Shown: positions 51,148-60,211 of the stretch, piece after piece
Numbering within the stretch: the stretch's first letter is position 1
Layout: each line of letters begins with the position of its first letter
Assembly (NCBI RefSeq): GCF_009858175.1
Contig: NZ_CP047393.1
Coordinates: forward strand, 186,001-250,000
Length of the DNA stretch: 64,000 bases
Origin: Pontibacillus sp. HMF3514
GTDB lineage: Bacteria > Bacillota > Bacilli > Bacillales > BH030062
Direction: 5' to 3'
Position numbers and translations under genes: made by a program
Notes under the pieces: model-generated
The model's input: the letters and a program-made list of their open reading frames with translations, nothing else
Databases searched by the model: none
What the model was told of the DNA's origin: nothing

Positions 51148-51585
51148 CTATGCTTTTTCCCAGTTCGCTGTTAATTTAACATCTGCTGCAGCAAGTGTCG
51201 TGTAAACAGGGCAGCGTTCATCGGTGATGCGTTGAAGTTCTTGAACACGTTCTTGAGATTCACTTGTGTTTACTTTTGCGTGTATTTCAACGGTTTGAAA
51301 GTAAGGACGAACACCTTCTGTTCCCATAAGACCACGTGGGTCAAGAGAACCTTTGATATCGAATGAAATATCTTGTAAGTCAAAATCTATTTCTTTTGCA
51401 ACCATATTTGCAATAACGGTTTCACAACCAGCTAATGATCCTAACAGAGTTGATAATGGATCCGCGCCTTGATCAGTACCTCCCATTGATGCCGGCTCGT
51501 CTACAGTGATTGAGTGCTTACCTGCTTCAATGTTTGATTTCATACCTTCTGATTTAGAAGTGATTTGAAATGTTTCTTCAGCCAT
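51148..51585 (-). CDS. OsmC/Ohr-family peroxiredoxin-like protein
   Basis: A 145-residue OsmC-fold protein, ATG 51585 after AAAGGAGGC. The two redox cysteines are in SLAGCETVIANMVA (about 54) and DERCPVYTTLAAAD (about 126), with the usual GADPLSTLLGSLAGC context. Such proteins reduce organic hydroperoxides. A TGTAA-N6-TTACA palindrome lies about 60 bp upstream of the start. Confidence 0.9.
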   Translation of the reverse strand: MAEETFQITSKSEGMKSNIEAGKHSITVDEPASMGGTDQGADPLSTLLGSLAGCETVIANMVAKEIDFDLQDISFDIKGSLDPRGLMGTEGVRPYFQTVEIHAKVNTSESQERVQELQRITDERCPVYTTLAAADVKLTANWEKA

Positions 51586-52218: not shown

Positions 52219-52446
52219 TTATAGGTGATCATGCTCTAGGTACTCTATAATATCTAACCCTTTTATAACTTTATTATTGGTGACAAGAACGGGTACATAA
52301 ACTTCCCCGATTAAGTCTTTCAGCTGGTTAGGTGCTTGCGGAGTTTGTAAAATATTTATTTCTCGAAATTCAATGTTCTGGCTCTCAAGCTGCTTTTTAG
52401 CCTTAAAACATTTCATGCACCCATCCATGGTATAAAGCTTTTTCAA
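52219..52446 (-). CDS. Glutaredoxin-like protein with CMKC motif
   Basis: A 75-residue glutaredoxin-fold protein, TTG start 52446 after AAAGGAGG. The CxxC active site is in TMDGCMKCFKAKKQL (Cys near residues 10 and 13) and the cis-proline in VYVPVLV. It would take part in thiol-disulfide exchange. It is divergent from the Crp/Fnr regulator gene, with only about 48 bp between starts, so they likely share control. Confidence 0.85.
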   Translation of the reverse strand: MKKLYTMDGCMKCFKAKKQLESQNIEFREINILQTPQAPNQLKDLIGEVYVPVLVTNNKVIKGLDIIEYLEHDHL

Positions 52447-52494
52447 TTGAGAACCTCCTTTTCTTTGATGTCGATATTCTAAGAGGTGAAACTA

Positions 52495-53172
52495 GTGGAT
52501 AAATTGTTAATGCTCTCTCAAATAAGTTTATTTGATGAGCTCCCAAAAGAAGAGTTAATGGTAATTGACGAAATGAGTGAAATGAAACCACTCAAAAAAG
52601 GGACTACGATATTGTCTCCTGAAAACCCAATTCAAGCACTGTTTTTGTTGAAGCAAGGGCAAGTTCGCCTATACCGAATGAACAGTGAAGGAAGACAATT
52701 TACCGTCGATATTTTGGTGGATGGAAATATCTTTGGTGAAACCTCTACCGTATCCTTAACCGATGATCAAATTTATGCTGAAGCTATGGTAGATACATAT
52801 GTGTGTATATTAAGTCATGAGGATTTTGAGCATTTTATTGAAAAAAACCCCAAAATCGCTTTAAAGCTTATTGATATCTTATCCACACGTTTAAAAGAAG
52901 TTTACAGCATTAGTGAAAAGATTGCCTTGAGTGACGTGAAAAACCGCTTATTATATCTACTCCTTATGTTAAGTGAGAAAACAGGTCGTCGCAAAAATCA
53001 CTGGCAAACGATCGAGATGCGCCTCACTCACCAGGATTTAGCCAATATGATCGGTTCAACTAGAGAGACCACCAGTGCAATTATTAGTCAGCTTAAAAAA
53101 GAGGGCTATATCAAAAAAGGCATCTGGTTTTCTGTTCATGCTGAAAAAGTTAAAGAACTTTTGGATGTGTAA
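52495..53172 (+). CDS. Crp/Fnr-family transcriptional regulator
   Basis: GTG 52495 follows AAGAGGTG by seven bases (a GTG at 52486 lies within that site) and gives 225 residues. The cyclic-nucleotide-binding-type domain (about 10-120, with LKQGQVRLYRMNSEGRQFTV and GNIFGETS) is followed by a Crp helix-turn-helix (LTHQDLANMIGSTRETTSAI). The N terminus has no cysteine cluster, so it is not an Fe-S Fnr. The signal is unknown. It sits amid redox genes. Confidence 0.88.
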   Translation: MDKLLMLSQISLFDELPKEELMVIDEMSEMKPLKKGTTILSPENPIQALFLLKQGQVRLYRMNSEGRQFTVDILVDGNIFGETSTVSLTDDQIYAEAMVDTYVCILSHEDFEHFIEKNPKIALKLIDILSTRLKEVYSISEKIALSDVKNRLLYLLLMLSEKTGRRKNHWQTIEMRLTHQDLANMIGSTRETTSAIISQLKKEGYIKKGIWFSVHAEKVKELLDV

Positions 53173-53193
53173 GGAAGAGGTCCTTACACATCC
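53163..53193. terminator. Perfect 13-bp inverted repeat between convergent genes
   Basis: GGATGTGTAAGGA and TCCTTACACATCC pair perfectly around AGAGG. It overlaps the crp/fnr stop and lies six bases before the reductase stop. No T run follows, so termination efficiency is uncertain. Confidence 0.5.
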
Positions 53194-53198
53194 AATCA

Positions 53199-54623
53199 CT
53201 ATCTAAACCAACGTATGAATGTTTGGGTCAGCTTTGGAACAACACCAGAGAATAATTTGTTTCGCCAGTACTGATTACTTGCTTGTTCAATTGCTGCTGT
53301 GTGGTTTGGGTAAGGATAAATCATATTAGAAAGATCTCCGATTTTCATGCCTTTTTCCACGGCTAGAATGAGAACTTGCATCCAGTCCCCAACACCTTTA
53401 CCAATCGCATGAGCACCTACAATCTGACCTTTAGTAGAAGTGATGATTTTCAAGAAACCCTCCGAGGCATGATCTGCCACGTAACGGTCTACTTCATCTA
53501 AGTTCGTTTGATAGATCATCACATCGCCGTGCTCTTTTTGTGCTTCTTCTTGAGTCAATCCGAAGTGGAATACCTCAGGAGTAAGGTAAGTATTCCATGG
53601 AATATTTTCATAGGATACACTTCGGCGCAGACCAAACACAGCATTTTGTACGACAGTCTTGCCTTCGTGACCTGCGACGTGGGTGAAAGGATAAGAACCG
53701 TTCACATCACCGACTGCAAAAATGTGACTTACAGATGTACGCATCGTACCATCAACCTTCACGAATCCTCGCTCATCTAATTTCACACCTGCTTGGTCTA
53801 ACTGGAGAGAGTCCGTGTTTGGTTTACGTCCAGTGGCTAAAAAGACTTTGTCCGTTTCGATTACATGTGTATGATTTCCCACGGAATAGTGTACATGAGT
53901 TTGCCCGTTTTCCCGTGAAGTTTTCTCTACTTTTGCATGAGTGACAATGTTTATTTCTTGCTCAAGAATCTCTTGAGCTTTTTTTTGAATGTCGTAATCT
54001 TCTTTGCCAAGTACAGATGGACCAGCTTCTAAGACCGTAACTTCAGAACCGAGTCTTGAAAATGCTTGAGCAATCTCCAAGCCAATAGGACCGCCACCAA
54101 TAAATACGAGTTTCTTTGGAAGTTCATTCAAATCGAAAACTGTTTCATTCGTAAGGTAGCCAGTCTGATCTAATCCTTCAATTGGTGGAATGTTTGGACT
54201 CGACCCCGTAGAGATTACAATTCGTTTGCCATACACACGTGTGTTGCCTTCAACATCGACTTCATGTTCATTATGAAAGGAGGCATCACCAATATAGACA
54301 TCAATTCCAAGCTCTTTAAAACGGTCGATACTATCGTGCTCTTGAATATGGGAGATTGATTGTTTAATTCGATCGTTAATAGCCTTCATATCAACATCTC
54401 CTGAAGCATGAACTCCATACGCACTTACATTCCTTGCGTGGTAAACTTCATTTGCTACTTCAATGAGTGCTTTTGATGGAACACAACCGTAATGTAGACA
54501 ATCCCCTCCAAGGTCTTCGCGCTTATCAATAAGAGCTGTTTTCGCTCCAAGAGAAGCAGCACCAGCCGCAACGGTTAAACCACCAGCACCACCACCGACA
54601 ATAATTAGGTCATATTTTTTCAT
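53199..54623 (-). CDS. Pyridine nucleotide-disulfide oxidoreductase (mercuric reductase/Lpd-like)
   Basis: A 474-residue FAD enzyme, ATG 54623 after AGAGAGGAGATG. FAD-binding GGGAGGLTVAAGAASLGAKT, redox-active C-x4-C in GGDCLHYGCVPSKAL (about 41-55), NAD-binding VFIGGGPIGLEIAQAFSRLG, the second FAD motif FAVGDVNG and a C-terminal His-x4-Glu-like end (YPNHTAAIEQ) are seen. It lacks the N-terminal HMA domain of true MerA and the lipoamide operon context. It is the last gene of the Ynj-like operon; such reductases are found near TVP38 proteins in many bacteria. Confidence 0.87.
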   Translation of the reverse strand: MKKYDLIIVGGGAGGLTVAAGAASLGAKTALIDKREDLGGDCLHYGCVPSKALIEVANEVYHARNVSAYGVHASGDVDMKAINDRIKQSISHIQEHDSIDRFKELGIDVYIGDASFHNEHEVDVEGNTRVYGKRIVISTGSSPNIPPIEGLDQTGYLTNETVFDLNELPKKLVFIGGGPIGLEIAQAFSRLGSEVTVLEAGPSVLGKEDYDIQKKAQEILEQEINIVTHAKVEKTSRENGQTHVHYSVGNHTHVIETDKVFLATGRKPNTDSLQLDQAGVKLDERGFVKVDGTMRTSVSHIFAVGDVNGSYPFTHVAGHEGKTVVQNAVFGLRRSVSYENIPWNTYLTPEVFHFGLTQEEAQKEHGDVMIYQTNLDEVDRYVADHASEGFLKIITSTKGQIVGAHAIGKGVGDWMQVLILAVEKGMKIGDLSNMIYPYPNHTAAIEQASNQYWRNKLFSGVVPKLTQTFIRWFR

Positions 54624-54638
54624 TGGATCATCTCCTCT

Positions 54639-55220
54639 CTAAGATAAAATTCGTTTGGCTTCAAAGAAGCGTTGTAAGCCTGTGAATATCTCAACAGCTA
54701 AAAAGGCTAACGTGGACCATAATAGAATAGATGGGAATAACATCATAATGCTAAAAAGGATAAATCCTTCTGAACGCTCTGCTAATCCTGCTTGGTAATA
54801 GAATGACTTGATGCCTTGCTTTTCAGAAACAGCTCCTACTGTAAGAAATATAGTCATAGAAAAAATGATGGAAACGCTTAGTAGTAATAAAGACCACATC
54901 AGATCAGGGTGAACAAATGCAATAGCTAAAATAATAGTAATTTCGACCACACGGTCAAACGTAATATCCATTACTGTCCCAAAAGAGGATGGTTTGGTAA
55001 GACGAGCCATCGTACCATCCACTGCATCGAGGAACCCAGAGAACCATAGGACGATAACAGCTATAAGAGGTGATCCTAAAATATAGAAGCCACCAGCTGA
55101 TATTCCGACCAAAAATGCTATAAATGTGACTTGGTTCGGAGTCAGACCTTTATCTACCAGCCATTTCCCTGTTTTTTCTATAGAAGGTTGTACAAATTTT
55201 CTTGCGTGAGTATCTAGCAT
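54639..55220 (-). CDS. CDP-alcohol phosphatidyltransferase (YnjF-like)
   Basis: ATG 55220 follows GAAGGAGTC and gives 193 residues. The family signature D-G-x2-A-R-x8-G-x3-D-x3-D is intact (LDAVDGTMARLTKPSSFGTV, then MDITFDR). About six membrane segments follow. The family joins a CDP-linked lipid or alcohol to an acceptor. E. coli YnjF is the comparable gene of the ynj cluster. Its substrate is not known. Confidence 0.88.
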   Translation of the reverse strand: MLDTHARKFVQPSIEKTGKWLVDKGLTPNQVTFIAFLVGISAGGFYILGSPLIAVIVLWFSGFLDAVDGTMARLTKPSSFGTVMDITFDRVVEITIILAIAFVHPDLMWSLLLLSVSIIFSMTIFLTVGAVSEKQGIKSFYYQAGLAERSEGFILFSIMMLFPSILLWSTLAFLAVEIFTGLQRFFEAKRILS

Positions 55221-55237
55221 GGTATCGACTCCTTCAT

Positions 55238-55888
55238 TTATTCCGTAAGACCAAGCCATTTTTTAACTTGATTTCTTAATAAGTAGGTTAAGCCTAAAAG
55301 AACAACAAATATAATGAGGGCTACTATTATCATGCTCGTATTCCCTGATTCAATGCTAGAACCAAGGAAACTATAGGCGAACGTACCAGGAATAATTCCG
55401 ATTGTGGCCATCATATAAGAACGAAATTTAACTCGTGCAATTCCAGAAATGTAGCTTAAAACGTCGAATCCTATTAAAGGAATTAAGCGTAAGATAAGGA
55501 CATATAGAAAACCTCGTTCTTGTACCTTTTCATACACTTGATCAGACCACTTGAAATTGTGAAATTTTAATATGGAATCGCCAAAATAACGAGCCATCAC
55601 ATATCCTGTTGCTGCCGCACCCGTTGCGCCAATCAGTATATAAAAGAATCCAGGGAATACCCCATAGGCAATCCCGGCAGCAAGAGAAAGAATGGATGTC
55701 GGGAAAAAGACAAAGGGTCCAATGGCGTATATGATAAAAAAGATAAATGGCGACCACCAACCAAAAGATAAGATGAAGTTTTTAATATTTGTTGCTGTGA
55801 TATTGAATTCAAACCGCACAATATAGGCTAGGATTAAAAATATAAGCAAAAAGATAATCGGTTTGATCCAGTTTCTTAGTTGTTTCAT
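55238..55888 (-). CDS. TVP38/TMEM64 (DedA-related SNARE-associated) membrane protein
   Basis: A 216-residue membrane protein with the VTT-domain features: GPFVFFPTSILSLAAGIAYG, an inner GATGAAATGYVMARYFG and a second half ALRLIPLIG-type segment (LRLIPLIGFDVLSYISGIAR). The family includes E. coli YdjX/YdjZ and lipid scramblase relatives. Start ATG 55888, four bases after the ATPase stop. It may handle the lipid used or made by the adjacent phosphatidyltransferase. Confidence 0.88.
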   Translation of the reverse strand: MKQLRNWIKPIIFLLIFLILAYIVRFEFNITATNIKNFILSFGWWSPFIFFIIYAIGPFVFFPTSILSLAAGIAYGVFPGFFYILIGATGAAATGYVMARYFGDSILKFHNFKWSDQVYEKVQERGFLYVLILRLIPLIGFDVLSYISGIARVKFRSYMMATIGIIPGTFAYSFLGSSIESGNTSMIIVALIIFVVLLGLTYLLRNQVKKWLGLTE

Positions 55889-55892
55889 ACAA

Positions 55893-56876
55893 TCATTCCT
55901 TTGATTTGGAATTCATAAACGATTGGACACGCTCTTGGTCTGCTGTTACAAATACATTCGTTCCAATCGAAAGCTCTAATCCGCTCGAGAGTGTTACATT
56001 TTTTTGTAAAGAAGGGATCCTAATTTGATAAAAGCGATTCCCGTGGTAAAAGATTCCGTTTTTAACTATGCCTTCCCAACAATATTGCTCAGTTCGGGGT
56101 TCATTGGTTGTGACAAATAGTGAATGAAGGGGAGCGTAATAATCTTCATCTATAACCAAATGATCTCCAAAGAATTCAGCAACAAATGAGTTAGCAGGAG
56201 TCTGATAAACATCTTTTGGCTCACCTATTTGTTGGAAAAATCCTTCATGGAAGACGCCTACTCGATCCCCCATATACATTGCTTCCTCACGATCATGCGT
56301 GATAAATAGAGCCGTGATGTTCTGATCTTTAAGCAAATCTCTTACCCAAGTTCTCATCTCGTCTCTTAACTGCTCATCAAGACTGCTAAACGGTTCATCG
56401 AGTAAAAGAAGTTCGGGTTGAATAGCTAGCGAACGAGCTAATGATACCCGTTGCTGCTGACCTCCAGAGAGTTCATGAGGAAAAGCTCGTTCATACCCAT
56501 TTAATCCTACATGTTGTAAAAGAGATTGTGCCCGTTCTGTTCGCTCATTCTTATAACGTTTTTGGAACGTTAGTCCATATGCGACATTTTCCAAAATCGT
56601 CATGTGAGGGAATAGCAAAGGCTGTTGAAAAACTAAGCTTACAGGACGCTTGTTAGCATCCATGTTCGTTACGTTTTCCTTATTAATGAGAAAACGGCCT
56701 TGTGTAAAAGGTTCAAGTCCAGCTAAGCAGCGTAATAAAGTGGTTTTACCACTGCCTGAAGGTCCAACAATACTCATGATTTCTCCCTTATCTAGAGAGA
56801 GATCCAATTGTTCGAAAACTGTATTTGTTTGAAAGGATTTCGTTGCTTGCTGTAGTTGGATATAAGGTGATGTCAT
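55893..56876 (-). CDS. ABC transporter ATPase (YnjD-like)
   Basis: The start ATG 56876 overlaps the permease stop (ATGA), giving 327 residues. Walker A SIVGPSGSGKTTLLRCLAG, Q-loop LVFQQPLLFPHM, signature ELSGGQQQRVSLARSLA, Walker B LLLLDEPFSSLDEQ and switch FITHDREEAM are all present. A C-terminal extension of about 100 residues may be a TOBE-like regulatory domain. It energises the two permeases encoded upstream. Confidence 0.92.
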   Translation of the reverse strand: MTSPYIQLQQATKSFQTNTVFEQLDLSLDKGEIMSIVGPSGSGKTTLLRCLAGLEPFTQGRFLINKENVTNMDANKRPVSLVFQQPLLFPHMTILENVAYGLTFQKRYKNERTERAQSLLQHVGLNGYERAFPHELSGGQQQRVSLARSLAIQPELLLLDEPFSSLDEQLRDEMRTWVRDLLKDQNITALFITHDREEAMYMGDRVGVFHEGFFQQIGEPKDVYQTPANSFVAEFFGDHLVIDEDYYAPLHSLFVTTNEPRTEQYCWEGIVKNGIFYHGNRFYQIRIPSLQKNVTLSSGLELSIGTNVFVTADQERVQSFMNSKSKE

Positions 56877-57682
56877 GTGCGAATCCTCCAAGGGTTTTGA
56901 TACGGTAATAAGAGGAACAATAACTCAACCATGATATAAAATAGAAGGGGAAGCAAAGCGAACCATATCGAGAACGCTGCTAGCACAGTACTATTCGCTG
57001 AGTTTAAAAATGGAAAATATACAAGAGCCAAGGTAACTACATTTCCTCCCCCGATGATTGCAGTTATCACATACTGACTCAGGCTGATGACAAATGTTAG
57101 AAAGATTGTGCTCCTTATGGCTGGTTTTAATAAAGGAACGTCAATCGATAAAAATCTTTGCCATGGATTAGGACCTAAAATGCGAGATTGTTCTAACATA
57201 GAAGCACCTAAAGATGTATAACCATTGCGCAAGATTTTTACAGAGTAAGGTATGGTAGGAACTAAGTGAATCAAGACCACACCTATCCAAGTATTAGTCA
57301 TATCTAGACGTATCATCGCAATGTGGACGCCAATTGTAATAGCAAGTAATGGGATAATAATAGGGAAAAGGATGACAGCTTCTAAGAATGATTTCCCTTT
57401 AAAGTCATACATCGCTAGTGCATACCCAGCTGTCAGACCTATGATTAAATTTAGTAATACAACGATTGCTCCAATCCCAAGTGATACCAAGGTAGCATGT
57501 ATGAGTTGGTTCTCTGAGAAAAGAGTTCCCCACCCTTGTAATGTGAAATGGGTGTGAACATGAGCTTCATACCGAGTTGGTAAGGTAAAGCTTTTGAATA
57601 ATAAGAAAAGCACAGGAAAGAGAAACAAAGTTGTTGTATATAACCAGAATTGAATCTTTTTATTTCTTGGTGCTTTCATCAT
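56873..57682 (-). CDS. ABC permease subunit 2 (YnjC C-terminal half-like)
   Basis: A 269-residue inner-membrane permease with six segments. The EAA loop that contacts the ATPase reads LEQSRILGPNPWQRFLSIDV. E. coli YnjC is a double-length protein; here the halves are two genes. It follows the other permease gene by one base. Start ATG 57682. Confidence 0.88.
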   Translation of the reverse strand: MMKAPRNKKIQFWLYTTTLFLFPVLFLLFKSFTLPTRYEAHVHTHFTLQGWGTLFSENQLIHATLVSLGIGAIVVLLNLIIGLTAGYALAMYDFKGKSFLEAVILFPIIIPLLAITIGVHIAMIRLDMTNTWIGVVLIHLVPTIPYSVKILRNGYTSLGASMLEQSRILGPNPWQRFLSIDVPLLKPAIRSTIFLTFVISLSQYVITAIIGGGNVVTLALVYFPFLNSANSTVLAAFSIWFALLPLLFYIMVELLFLLLPYQNPWRIRT

Positions 57683-57683
57683 G

Positions 57684-58544
57684 TTATCTGTTTCCTTTCG
57701 TAAATAACCAACGCTTGCGATTCGTTATCGCGTATAGACCCCAAGACACAATACCAATCAGTATGCTTGTAGAAATCATCGCTGCAAAAGCCAGAGGACG
57801 CTCACTCCAATCTCCAGCGTAAAACCAATCGTATGTTAAGATTGAAATCATTTCAGGAAATGTAGACCCTAGTAAATAAGGCACTTCATAAGCGCTTAAA
57901 ATAAAAGCAAATAGAATGATTCCTGATTCAAGCAAAATAGGAGAGACCCATGGCCACTCTGCATCTTTAAACGCTGCCCAACGACCTCCCCCAAGTGTTC
58001 GAACCAAGTCTTTATACTCGTGATTTTGTTGTACATAGACAGGTAACAGCATCAAGATTACGAAAGGAACTTCTTTACCTACATAAGTGAGGATCATCCC
58101 AATCCCATTTTGATCATTGGTTAGGATAGGGAAGGACTCACGACTTTCGATGACTCCAAGGTGATAGAACATATAAGAAAACAAGCCGCTCTGTTCAAAG
58201 AGTAATAAAACGATATACCCCCATACAAAGTGAGGGAATAGCATCGGAATCCATACACTTAGCTTCCCAGACATTCGATTAATTAGAGGATAAAAAGCTC
58301 GTGTTAGTAAAAGGCCAATCACTAATGAACATCCAGTAGCAATCAAGGTGATACGAAGGCTGTAAAATAAGGAGTACCAAAATGCCTCCTTTTGAAATAA
58401 CTCCTCATAAGTTTGAAGCGATAGACTCCCCTGATGTACTAAGCTACTCCATAGAGCTGAAAATAGCCCGTAAGCAGGTAATAATAAAAATAGTAATACC
58501 GGGAGTAAGAGGAGCCAGATCTTAGTCTTTCCGGATGACTTCAT
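57684..58544 (-). CDS. ABC permease subunit 1 (YnjC N-terminal half-like)
   Basis: A 286-residue permease with six membrane segments. The EAA-type loop is YKDLVRTLGGGRWAAFKDAE. ATG 58544 lies inside the end of the binding-protein gene (23-bp overlap), showing tight coupling. It should pair with the next permease to form the channel of the transporter. Confidence 0.87.
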   Translation of the reverse strand: MKSSGKTKIWLLLLPVLLFLLLPAYGLFSALWSSLVHQGSLSLQTYEELFQKEAFWYSLFYSLRITLIATGCSLVIGLLLTRAFYPLINRMSGKLSVWIPMLFPHFVWGYIVLLLFEQSGLFSYMFYHLGVIESRESFPILTNDQNGIGMILTYVGKEVPFVILMLLPVYVQQNHEYKDLVRTLGGGRWAAFKDAEWPWVSPILLESGIILFAFILSAYEVPYLLGSTFPEMISILTYDWFYAGDWSERPLAFAAMISTSILIGIVSWGLYAITNRKRWLFTKGNR

Positions 58545-59757
58545 TCTTCCAATTCTCCTTTAACCACTCTACATAGGTGGAATCAGCCTCAGGTAAAAAG
58601 CTCTCCTCTAACTTTTTAGCTGGTAAGACAGTCTTACCACGATCAAGAGATTGGAATTTTTCCCGATCCTCGGCTGATAATTTATCAATACTTATTGGCG
58701 TATTGTCCCCCCAATAAGTGGGTTTGAGCTTTTTCAGTTGTGCATTTGGTGATAATAAAAAGTTGATGGCTGTTATGGCACCTTCCTTGTTTGGGCTGTT
58801 GTATGGAATCGCAAGGAAGTGCGTATTTCCAATTGATCCCGACTCCATGACAAAAGAGCGAGTTGACTCAGGAAAAACGCCATCTTCAATCATGTGTTCA
58901 GCCCTGGCTTCGTTATAACCCATGGTCATCCATACGTCTCCATTTCTATATAACCGATCGAGTTGGGATAACGTGGATGGGTAATGCTTTCCCTCGCGCC
59001 ATAAATGAGGTTGGATTTCGTTTAAATAAGACCACATTTGTTCAGAATGCTTTGTGGCATGTTGCTTTGAAAAGGGTTCTTCGATAATGGATTCAGGACT
59101 GTCAGCCGATTGATAGAGTAAATGCCTTAAAAAAGCGTTGCCTGAAAAATCATCTGGGTTTGGATAAGTGAACTTGCCAGGATTGTCTTTCACCCAGACT
59201 TTTAGTTCTTCAAATGATTTAGGAGGCTCTTCGATTTTATTGCTATCGTATTGAAAAACGAACTGTACTTTACCCCAAGGTGCTTCATAACCATCCACAG
59301 CTGTTCCGAAGTCATATTGAAAAGCTAAGCTTTCCTGGTCGTAGTATTTTTTGAAATTGGGGAGCTGGTTTCGAAACGGACCATAAAGTAAATCGCTATT
59401 CTTAGCGTTTTTAAAATTCTCACCATTGATCCAAATCACATCAATGGTTCCTTTCTTTTTACCGGCTCTTTTTTCTGAGTGGAGCTTTTGTAATATGTTT
59501 TGCGTGTCCATTGGCGTTCTCTTTAATGTAATGTTGTATTGTTCTTTAAGTTTAGGAGCGACCCATTCATCTATATAGCGGTTAATGCCTTCATCTCCGC
59601 CCCACATATGAATGTGTACAGTGGTGGCGTCTGCTTTTTGAGTGATGTCTGACCAAGATGTATTTTGAAAATCAATCGATTGAGTGGTTGGATTATTAGT
59701 TTGACCGCATGCCGTTAACAACAGGATGAATAGAATTAAAAAAGGTTGTTTTTTCAT
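58522..59757 (-). CDS. ABC solute-binding lipoprotein (YnjB-like)
   Basis: ATG 59757 after AGGAGGGC begins KKQPFLILFILLLTACGQTN with lipobox LTAC; upstream in-frame codons are rejected. The 411-residue protein has the family motif IDVIWINGENFKNAKNSDLL near residue 110, and MTMGYNEARAEHMI further on. This is the YnjB type, a group 1/thiamine-phosphonate-like binding protein with unknown ligand. It heads the seven-gene operon. Confidence 0.88.
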   Translation of the reverse strand: MKKQPFLILFILLLTACGQTNNPTTQSIDFQNTSWSDITQKADATTVHIHMWGGDEGINRYIDEWVAPKLKEQYNITLKRTPMDTQNILQKLHSEKRAGKKKGTIDVIWINGENFKNAKNSDLLYGPFRNQLPNFKKYYDQESLAFQYDFGTAVDGYEAPWGKVQFVFQYDSNKIEEPPKSFEELKVWVKDNPGKFTYPNPDDFSGNAFLRHLLYQSADSPESIIEEPFSKQHATKHSEQMWSYLNEIQPHLWREGKHYPSTLSQLDRLYRNGDVWMTMGYNEARAEHMIEDGVFPESTRSFVMESGSIGNTHFLAIPYNSPNKEGAITAINFLLSPNAQLKKLKPTYWGDNTPISIDKLSAEDREKFQSLDRGKTVLPAKKLEESFLPEADSTYVEWLKENWKNEVIRKD

Positions 59758-59823: not shown

Positions 59824-59893
59824 CAATGTGTTTTCGTTCCATGTTATGATATGTTTAAATATAGTAGGTAAGACTTTATAGGAGGCTATGACC

Positions 59894-60211
59894 ATGGAAA
59901 TGATTCATGAAACAGCAACGTTTCAAAACACAATTAACAGCGAAAAGCCTGTTATGATAAAATTCTCAGCAAACTGGTGCCCGGACTGTAAGCGTATGGA
60001 TATGTTCATCGGAGATATCTTAGAAGAGTACAGTGGCTATCAGTGGTTCGAAATTAACCGTGATGAACTTCCTGAAATTGCACAAGAGTATGATGTAATG
60101 GGAATTCCGAGCATTCTAATCTTCCAAAACGGTGCAAAGATCGCTCACTTACACAGTGCAAATGCGAAGACACCTGATGAAGTACAAGAATTCTTAACAA
60201 AATCTCTATAA
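59894..60211 (+). CDS. Thioredoxin-like protein (YtpP-type)
   Basis: ATG 59894 is eight bases after AGGAGG (ATG 59888 is too close) and gives 105 residues. The active site is SANWCPDCKRMDMF (CPDC) and the cis-Pro loop MGIPSILIF. CPDC differs from the CGPC of classical thioredoxin and is found in YtpP-like proteins. Divergent from the Ynj-like operon, it may be co-regulated. Confidence 0.9.
   Translation: MEMIHETATFQNTINSEKPVMIKFSANWCPDCKRMDMFIGDILEEYSGYQWFEINRDELPEIAQEYDVMGIPSILIFQNGAKIAHLHSANAKTPDEVQEFLTKSL

Follow-up and report, generated by a model that had tools for sequence, protein, structure and literature searches.

The window analysed here, a 64,000-nucleotide stretch of the genome of Pontibacillus sp. 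HMF3514 (a single contig of 3.98 Mb), carries at positions 53199-59757 a seven-gene operon that joins a YnjBCD-type ATP-binding cassette (ABC) importer to a TVP38/DedA-family membrane protein, a CDP-alcohol phosphatidyltransferase (CDP-AP) and a MerA-like flavoprotein. All seven genes are open, colinear and on the minus strand, with intergenic gaps of 1-17 bp and overlaps of 4 and 23 bp, which confirms the operon with gaps of at most 17 bp proposed earlier from the letters of the DNA (hereafter the sequence-only reading), and Pfam and NCBIfam searches agree with the gene families named there. From the first gene to the last, the operon comprises:

58522-59757, minus strand: YnjB-type substrate-binding protein (SBP), a lipoprotein, operon gene 1 (NF008633; lipobox LTAC and Shine-Dalgarno sequence read from the sequence)
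57684-58544, minus strand: ABC permease A (PF00528, BPD_transp_1; present in 84 of 87 related loci)
56873-57682, minus strand: ABC permease B (PF00528, BPD_transp_1)
55893-56876, minus strand: ABC ATPase, YnjD-type (PF00005, ABC_tran; start picked from the sequence)
55238-55888, minus strand: TVP38/DedA-family membrane protein (PF09335, VTT_dom; 91.4 bits)
54639-55220, minus strand: CDP-AP, YnjF-type, 193 amino acids (PF01066, CDP-OH_P_transf; intact motif)
53199-54623, minus strand: MerA-like FAD/NAD(P)H oxidoreductase, the flavoprotein, last gene of the operon (Pyr_redox_2 and dimerisation domain)

The SBP likely starts at 59757 (program-listed start of the open reading frame (ORF), 59895), and the ATPase likely starts at an ATG after GGAGG, in an ATGA shared with the permease B stop (program-listed TTG start, 56891). 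The CDP-AP start at 55220 is conserved among relatives (program-listed start, 55259). The SBP belongs to the YnjB family (NF008633/PRK11622, 482.6 bits against a cut-off of 203), its closest named relative among the matches listed being from Pontibacillus marinus (92%), and since the SBP, two permeases and ATPase are all in the window, the importer is of the YnjBCD type.

Related loci were collected from 60 neighbourhoods of Bacillota genomes and a scan in which at least 585 of 597 pattern-matching stretches encoded a relative; the best 80 of these at least 585 relatives were kept, giving 141 loci with the window. The SBP was called in 138 of the 141 and formed 97 groups at 70% identity, of which 10 were dropped and 87, each represented by a locus with at least 5 kb on each side, were counted; the window's own group is represented by another locus. 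Neighbour counts below are of genes within 8 kb in these 87 dereplicated loci, where a single representative of each, or an alignment, gave the names of the extra families, and the CCG protein was named by eye. TVP38 was found in 65 loci, the CDP-AP in 64 and the flavoprotein in 45, with all three in 37 and two or more in 60, besides permease A in 84 and the ATPase in 86 (a cluster that also includes other ABC ATPases). The neighbourhood check that the sequence-only reading had called for therefore bears out its recurrent association, seen not only in Bacillota but also in E. coli and in contigs of spirochaetes and Chloroflexi. Further neighbours were a TIGR03169-type flavoprotein (28), rhodanese (20), a GltD-like iron-sulfur reductase (16), a CRP-type regulator (15), the CCG protein (15), a nucleoside hydrolase (10), an APH kinase (9), an LPG_synthase_TM flippase-like protein (7) and YedE/TsuA- and TusA-like genes (5-6), and in some Bacillota loci the permease is fused into one protein.

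Across the order, the importer and the CDP-AP are present or absent together, with nearly the same phyletic profile. When 299 genomes of the order were profiled, the SBP scored over its cut-off in 96 and the CDP-AP profile matched at E 1e-20 or better in 96; both occurred in 94, spread over 36 genera, the importer only in 2, the CDP-AP only in 2, and neither in 201 (Fisher p 6e-73, without phylogenetic correction). As for the genomes with one of the two, in G200 the operon is cut by a contig end close to the SBP, G176 has an importer locus of the kinase/hydrolase type described below, the CDP-AP match of G270 is only weak (86 bits), and that of G289 is strong, with no SBP in the genome. The two genes were non-adjacent in 10 of the 94 genomes, lying 97-155 kb apart on one contig in six and on separate contigs in four, and because of this distance the coupling in the six genomes is not mere linkage. 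The gene set is a real and widespread functional unit. The recurrent association together with the near-identical profile gives good support to the earlier claim of one pathway, for importer and CDP-AP at any rate, and a sharper hypothesis than the first one can be drawn from it.

This result bears on the view that the importer is an ordinary one for polyamines or similar compounds, with neighbours present by chance or loosely linked. The AlphaFold2 (AF2) model of the window SBP (pLDDT 91.6) is nearest to PotD, AfuA and iron and thiamine binders, at 12-18% identity across the 50 best chains; a weak sequence match to PotD (E 3.5e-4) agrees with the PotD-like fold, and a table in a review lists YnjB among the homologues of polyamine SBPs (PMC9397018). 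Nevertheless, hexose-phosphate, iron, thiamine and gamma-aminobutyrate (GABA) binders score similarly in fold, and the recurrence of TVP38 and CDP-AP and the phyletic profile lie far beyond chance, which makes this explanation very improbable.

The window CDP-AP has the superfamily motif DxxDGxxAR(x7)GxxxDxxxD intact, as is the catalytic motif in 49 of 49 related proteins (not dereplicated) and in YnjF. The R-to-G spacer is 7 or 8 residues, compared with 8 in the CDP-alcohol phosphatidyltransferase pattern. For its AF2 model (pLDDT 88), the 19 best solved chains are phosphatidylinositol-phosphate (PIP) synthases, IPCT-DIPPS and AF2299 (TM-score by query 0.64-0.80), and the best NCBIfam models are archaetidylinositol-phosphate (AIP) and PIP synthases. 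These are the neighbours expected if the CDP-AP used an internal alcohol phosphate to make a PIP-like lipid, the importer served an unrelated need and regulation, for example by low oxygen, was shared instead of a substrate; the FNR regulon table of an E. coli study includes ydjXYZ-ynjABCD and ynjE, and the text of that study names ynjE as directly activated (PMC3688515). Compared with PIP/AIP synthases (6h59, 6wm5, 5d92; NF040950, NF045883), the window protein shares the fold and the catalytic motif but falls below the curated cut-offs (100.3 of 180 and 66 of 170 bits), and differs in the spacer and in keeping the phosphate-site basic residues only in part. In the profile alignment, S and G stand opposite K135 and R155, which we take to be basic phosphate-site residues of PIP synthases, and two other basic residues are kept; judging from this alignment, S and G would suit a different, perhaps unphosphorylated, alcohol. 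In addition, an unlinked CDP-AP is kept in some importer-positive genomes and the kinase/hydrolase exclusion described next points to a common substrate, so that an importer-independent PIP-like lipid seems unlikely.

In place of the CDP-AP, some loci carry one or both of two other enzymes. An APH kinase was found in 0 of 64 loci with CDP-AP versus 9 of 23 without, and a nucleoside hydrolase in 0 of 64 versus 10 of 23, at least one of the two being present in 14 of the 23. At the genome level (26 importer genomes), the CDP-AP, with matches at E 6e-57 or better, occurred in 0 of 8 kinase/hydrolase genomes, which gave no CDP-AP match even at E 1e-10, versus 16 of 18 others (p 2.9e-5). The locus variant was read from a neighbourhood in all of the 18 but G546, G537, G561 and G381, and the two misses are G381 (weak match, SBP cut by a contig end) and G200 (broken locus). 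Because the difference is not significant once phylogeny is counted, this exclusion is suggestive rather than proven, and stands less firmly than the coupling of importer and CDP-AP. As for the proteins themselves, the nucleoside hydrolase (L066:13380-14288 and relatives; alignment A5) forms a subfamily with an unusual FDCDNTxGx4DxDDG motif, invariant in the 9 aligned of 14 pieces, and the APH-fold kinase (L080:4279-5313 and relatives; alignment A4, 11 of 14 members aligned) reads mostly NTEVNSxNF at the position where kinases of this fold usually read HGDxxxxN.

The kinase of G176 is a methylthioribose (MTR) kinase by NCBIfam (478 bits, cut-off 275). Its gene precedes the SBP ORF by 19 bp, and a nucleoside hydrolase gene follows the ATPase ORF after 13 bp, within a tight same-strand run of TIGR03169-type flavoprotein, MerA-like flavoprotein, TIGR04283, TIGR04282, kinase, SBP, two permeases, ATPase, nucleoside hydrolase, YdjY and TVP38. 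Pairing of an MTR kinase with an importer is likewise seen in methionine salvage and MTR uptake (MtnK, MtrACB, DHAP (dihydroxyacetone phosphate) shunt), where MtrACB is described, in the text available from the two papers, as uncharacterised and similar to sugar transporters (PMC3228920, PMC12632272). Unlike those systems, neither G176 nor the window genome gave a match to mtnA, and as the kinase is also the sole MTR kinase match in its genome, it is placed outside ordinary methionine salvage. Salvage by MtnK and MtnA was rejected as an account of the loci, the window genome being without both and G176 having only the MtnK-type kinase. Arsenosugar biosynthesis as such was rejected as well: the arsenosugar-associated families TIGR04282 and TIGR04283 are both neighbours of the importer in six loci of the kinase/hydrolase type (NCBIfam names one of each, and the others were assigned by cluster profile), but ArsS (TIGR04167) was over its cut-off in 0 of 12 genomes searched, which included the window genome and not those of L164 and L165. 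Clusters of the TIGR04282/83 type occurred in 2 of 64 loci with CDP-AP, both being weak matches of 54-56 bits.

In the flavoprotein, C42-x4-C47 and Y438 are invariant in 67 of 67 aligned rows (not dereplicated), two of which, to judge from an APYLTM motif, appear to be genuine mercuric reductases (541-aa genes in L063 and L067). Classical disulfide reductases, such as lipoamide dehydrogenase (LPD) and glutathione reductase (GR), have a redox C-x4-C plus the catalytic His of HxHPT. The flavoprotein scores below the cut-offs of these families and has Tyr at the position taken for the catalytic His in all 67 rows. The redox step claimed by the sequence-only reading therefore stands in so far as a redox gene recurs, either the flavoprotein or rhodanese with iron-sulfur reductases, but the replaced His speaks against a classical disulfide reductase. 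Across the 87 loci the flavoprotein and the iron-sulfur reductases tend to alternate (Fisher p 1e-6); alternation beyond phylogeny was unsupported (1.3 opposite and 0.3 same of 7 independent pairs), and replacement of one by the other as an exclusion was dropped after this test on the tree.

The Tyr is aligned to the Tyr of a mercuric reductase, and together with the invariant C-x4-C this would suit a stress or detoxification module, in which the importer supplies a sulfur or thiol compound, oxidants, metals or metalloids are dealt with by the flavoprotein, OsmC, the glutaredoxin-like protein and the CRP-type regulator, and the membrane is remodelled in response through the lipid genes. Such a module would be in line with the OsmC, CRP and glutaredoxin-like genes found next to the importer in some Bacillaceae, with the rhodanese and YedE/TsuA- and TusA-like genes counted above, and with the listing of ydjZ in a silver screen (PMC6071238). 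However, the flavoprotein reached 360 bits against the mercuric reductase (TIGR02053) cut-off of 454 and is without Cys near the C-terminus. MerA has a C-terminal Cys pair. OsmC (5 of 87 loci), thioredoxin (6) and CRP (15) are rare enough to be regarded as local, and the CDP-AP is the sole partner shown to be co-inherited with the importer in the order, the flavoprotein not having been profiled genome-wide. We consider a stress module somewhat unlikely on these grounds. The CPDC thioredoxin, which had been taken to strengthen the redox theme, is present (59888-60211, plus strand), but with its six loci it was rejected as a conserved partner.

The membrane protein belongs to the TVP38/DedA family (PF09335, 91.4 bits against a cut-off of 33.9) and is the best of five PF09335 matches in the window genome. 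In L166, TVP38 (profile 4.5e-36, residues 4-219) is fused to the flavoprotein (from residue 239). Fusions of COG0398 TVP38/DedA proteins to pyridine nucleotide-disulfide oxidoreductases have been described (PMC10127716); these have the same two domains as the L166 fusion, whereas the window genes are separate, and an ABC importer with CDP-AP, as in the window, goes unmentioned in the available part of that paper. In Planococcus (L130, L132, L134, L136, L138, L139, L144), the flavoprotein is 627-636 aa long including a fused DUF1499-like C-terminal part, which is 44-48% identical to a separate DUF1499 protein of L142.

Genes for a PrdB-like reductase were found in 6 of 87 loci (L053:5345-6103, L060:3514-4254, L064:7816-8559, L124:8967-9758, L126:8957-9754, L127:14757-15491), with an in-frame TGA in a conserved PG(U)YICHQS in 6 of 6 near the importer; the L064 gene, when scanned, gave 198 of 300 bits with TIGR04483. 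From this reading frame, the gene probably encodes a selenoprotein in Bacillus-type genomes. SelD of the window genome (G000:C1:1891374-1892303) is over its cut-off and has one in-frame TGA; it is therefore probable that this organism uses selenium and that the SelD it encodes contains selenocysteine. SelD was over its cut-off in 166 of the 299 order genomes.

In E. coli K-12, ydjX-ydjY-ydjZ-ynjA-ynjB-ynjC-ynjD-ynjE lie on one strand and ynjF on the other, followed by nudG, and the genes of this set are annotated as putative or by domain. Family profiles of the Bacillota loci matched the E. coli SBP (350 bits), ATPase (189), TVP38 proteins (172 and 196), CDP-AP (99), rhodanese YnjE (116) and YdjY (247), and the permease also matches a locus family; the YdjY cluster, in 4 of 87 loci, is NF040466 (132 bits, cut-off 50). 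The parallel with E. coli drawn by the sequence-only reading thus holds for the SBP, ATPase, TVP38 and CDP-AP families, but ynjF is convergent to the operon and outside it, and no MerA-like flavoprotein or other flavin disulfide reductase is annotated in the stretch, where YdjY, YnjA and rhodanese YnjE are present. In addition, YnjC is one fused 550-aa permease instead of the two permeases of the window. The ynjAB genes are reported, in the text available, to be modestly induced by BaeR, perhaps indirectly (PMC2731931). A literature search over titles and abstract openings of open-licence texts found no account of the function of this gene set.

Our preferred reading, to which we give a probability of roughly 40%, is that the seven genes form one uptake-and-conversion pathway. 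YnjBCD would import a small organic molecule with a hydroxyl group, for which a 5-substituted ribose or a compound resembling a nucleoside, possibly with S, Se or As, is plausible. The CDP-AP would transfer phosphatidate from CDP-diacylglycerol to a hydroxyl of this molecule or its product, yielding an unusual phospholipid, which TVP38, to go by its family, may move in the membrane. The MerA-like flavoprotein would perform a two-electron redox step on the imported molecule or its heteroatom, and in anaerobes rhodanese and iron-sulfur NAD(P)H reductases would often stand in its place. In the alternative variant, the kinase would phosphorylate the imported molecule rather than its being phosphatidylated. 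Substrate, product and order of steps are what we infer; import followed by CDP-lipid attachment, as the sequence-only reading had it, fits the suggested exclusion between CDP-AP and kinase/hydrolase. On this view the imported molecule would have a hydroxyl group, perhaps that of a 5-substituted ribose, to which either a phosphatidyl or a phosphate group is added. The LPG_synthase_TM protein fits lipid movement and the PrdB-like selenoprotein genes fit reductive chemistry. A narrower version, in which bacteria from E. coli to Pontibacillus scavenge a 5-substituted ribose or nucleoside with S, Se or As and make it a phospholipid head group by direct phosphatidyl transfer, anaerobes phosphorylating it instead, is distinctly doubtful; to our knowledge, a lipid class with such a head group has not yet been described in these organisms.

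Several observations weigh against this pathway. TVP38, CDP-AP and flavoprotein are all absent within 8 kb in 10 of 87 loci (L076, L089, L093, L129, L149, L163, L165, L171, L177, L178). Nine of the 10 genomes with unlinked importer and CDP-AP come from one family (f7; the other is G212) and therefore represent few independent events, and the separate contigs in the unlinked cases may adjoin in the actual genome. Hydrolase and kinase are both missing from 9 of the 23 loci that lack CDP-AP, two of the 9 being Halobacillus loci, and on 7 supported independent pairs the presence of hydrolase/kinase ran opposite to that of the CDP-AP in a mean of 3.9 and the same way in none (median p 0.125). NCBIfam does not place the kinase seen more often (9 of 87 loci) among the methylthioribose kinases; it matches GntI and thiamine kinase best, though weakly, so that the ribose idea rests on G176 plus the hydrolase; a search of the window genome with the MTR kinase profile gave no match. 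The SBP resembles binders of polyamines, hexose phosphates, iron, thiamine and GABA in fold, which does not single out one ligand. The listing of ynjB in a ciprofloxacin persister screen (PMC13131330) and that of ydjZ in the silver screen (PMC6071238) carry, in the parts of these papers available, no pointer to this chemistry.

In E. coli K-12, both YnjBCD and YnjF count as functional orphans. The close coupling between the importer and the phosphatidyltransferase in one bacterial order, together with the kinase/hydrolase variant, leads to a concrete and testable prediction on the kind of substrate, and the pathway would tie an orphan transporter, an orphan lipid enzyme and the COG0398 DedA proteins together.

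The operon is flanked by the following features:

53161-53195, minus strand: terminator-like hairpin of 15 pairs with a T-containing tail, at the convergent ends of the operon and the CRP-type gene
52486-53172, plus strand: CRP/FNR-family regulator, convergent neighbour and candidate regulator (PF00027, PF13545; 15 of 87 loci)
52219-52446, minus strand: glutaredoxin-like CxxC protein of 75 aa, lineage-specific neighbour (8 of 87 loci; fold by eye)
51148-51585, minus strand: OsmC-like protein, lineage-specific neighbour (PF02566; 5 of 87 loci)
59888-60211, plus strand: thioredoxin with CPDC, divergent neighbour (PF00085; 6 of 87 loci)

The hairpin scan found 11 terminator-like sites, with 5.6 expected from shuffles. 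In spirochaete importer loci, DUF547 and DUF3047 proteins are encoded near TVP38, flavoprotein and CDP-AP (L151:12926-13732, L150:14951-15649).

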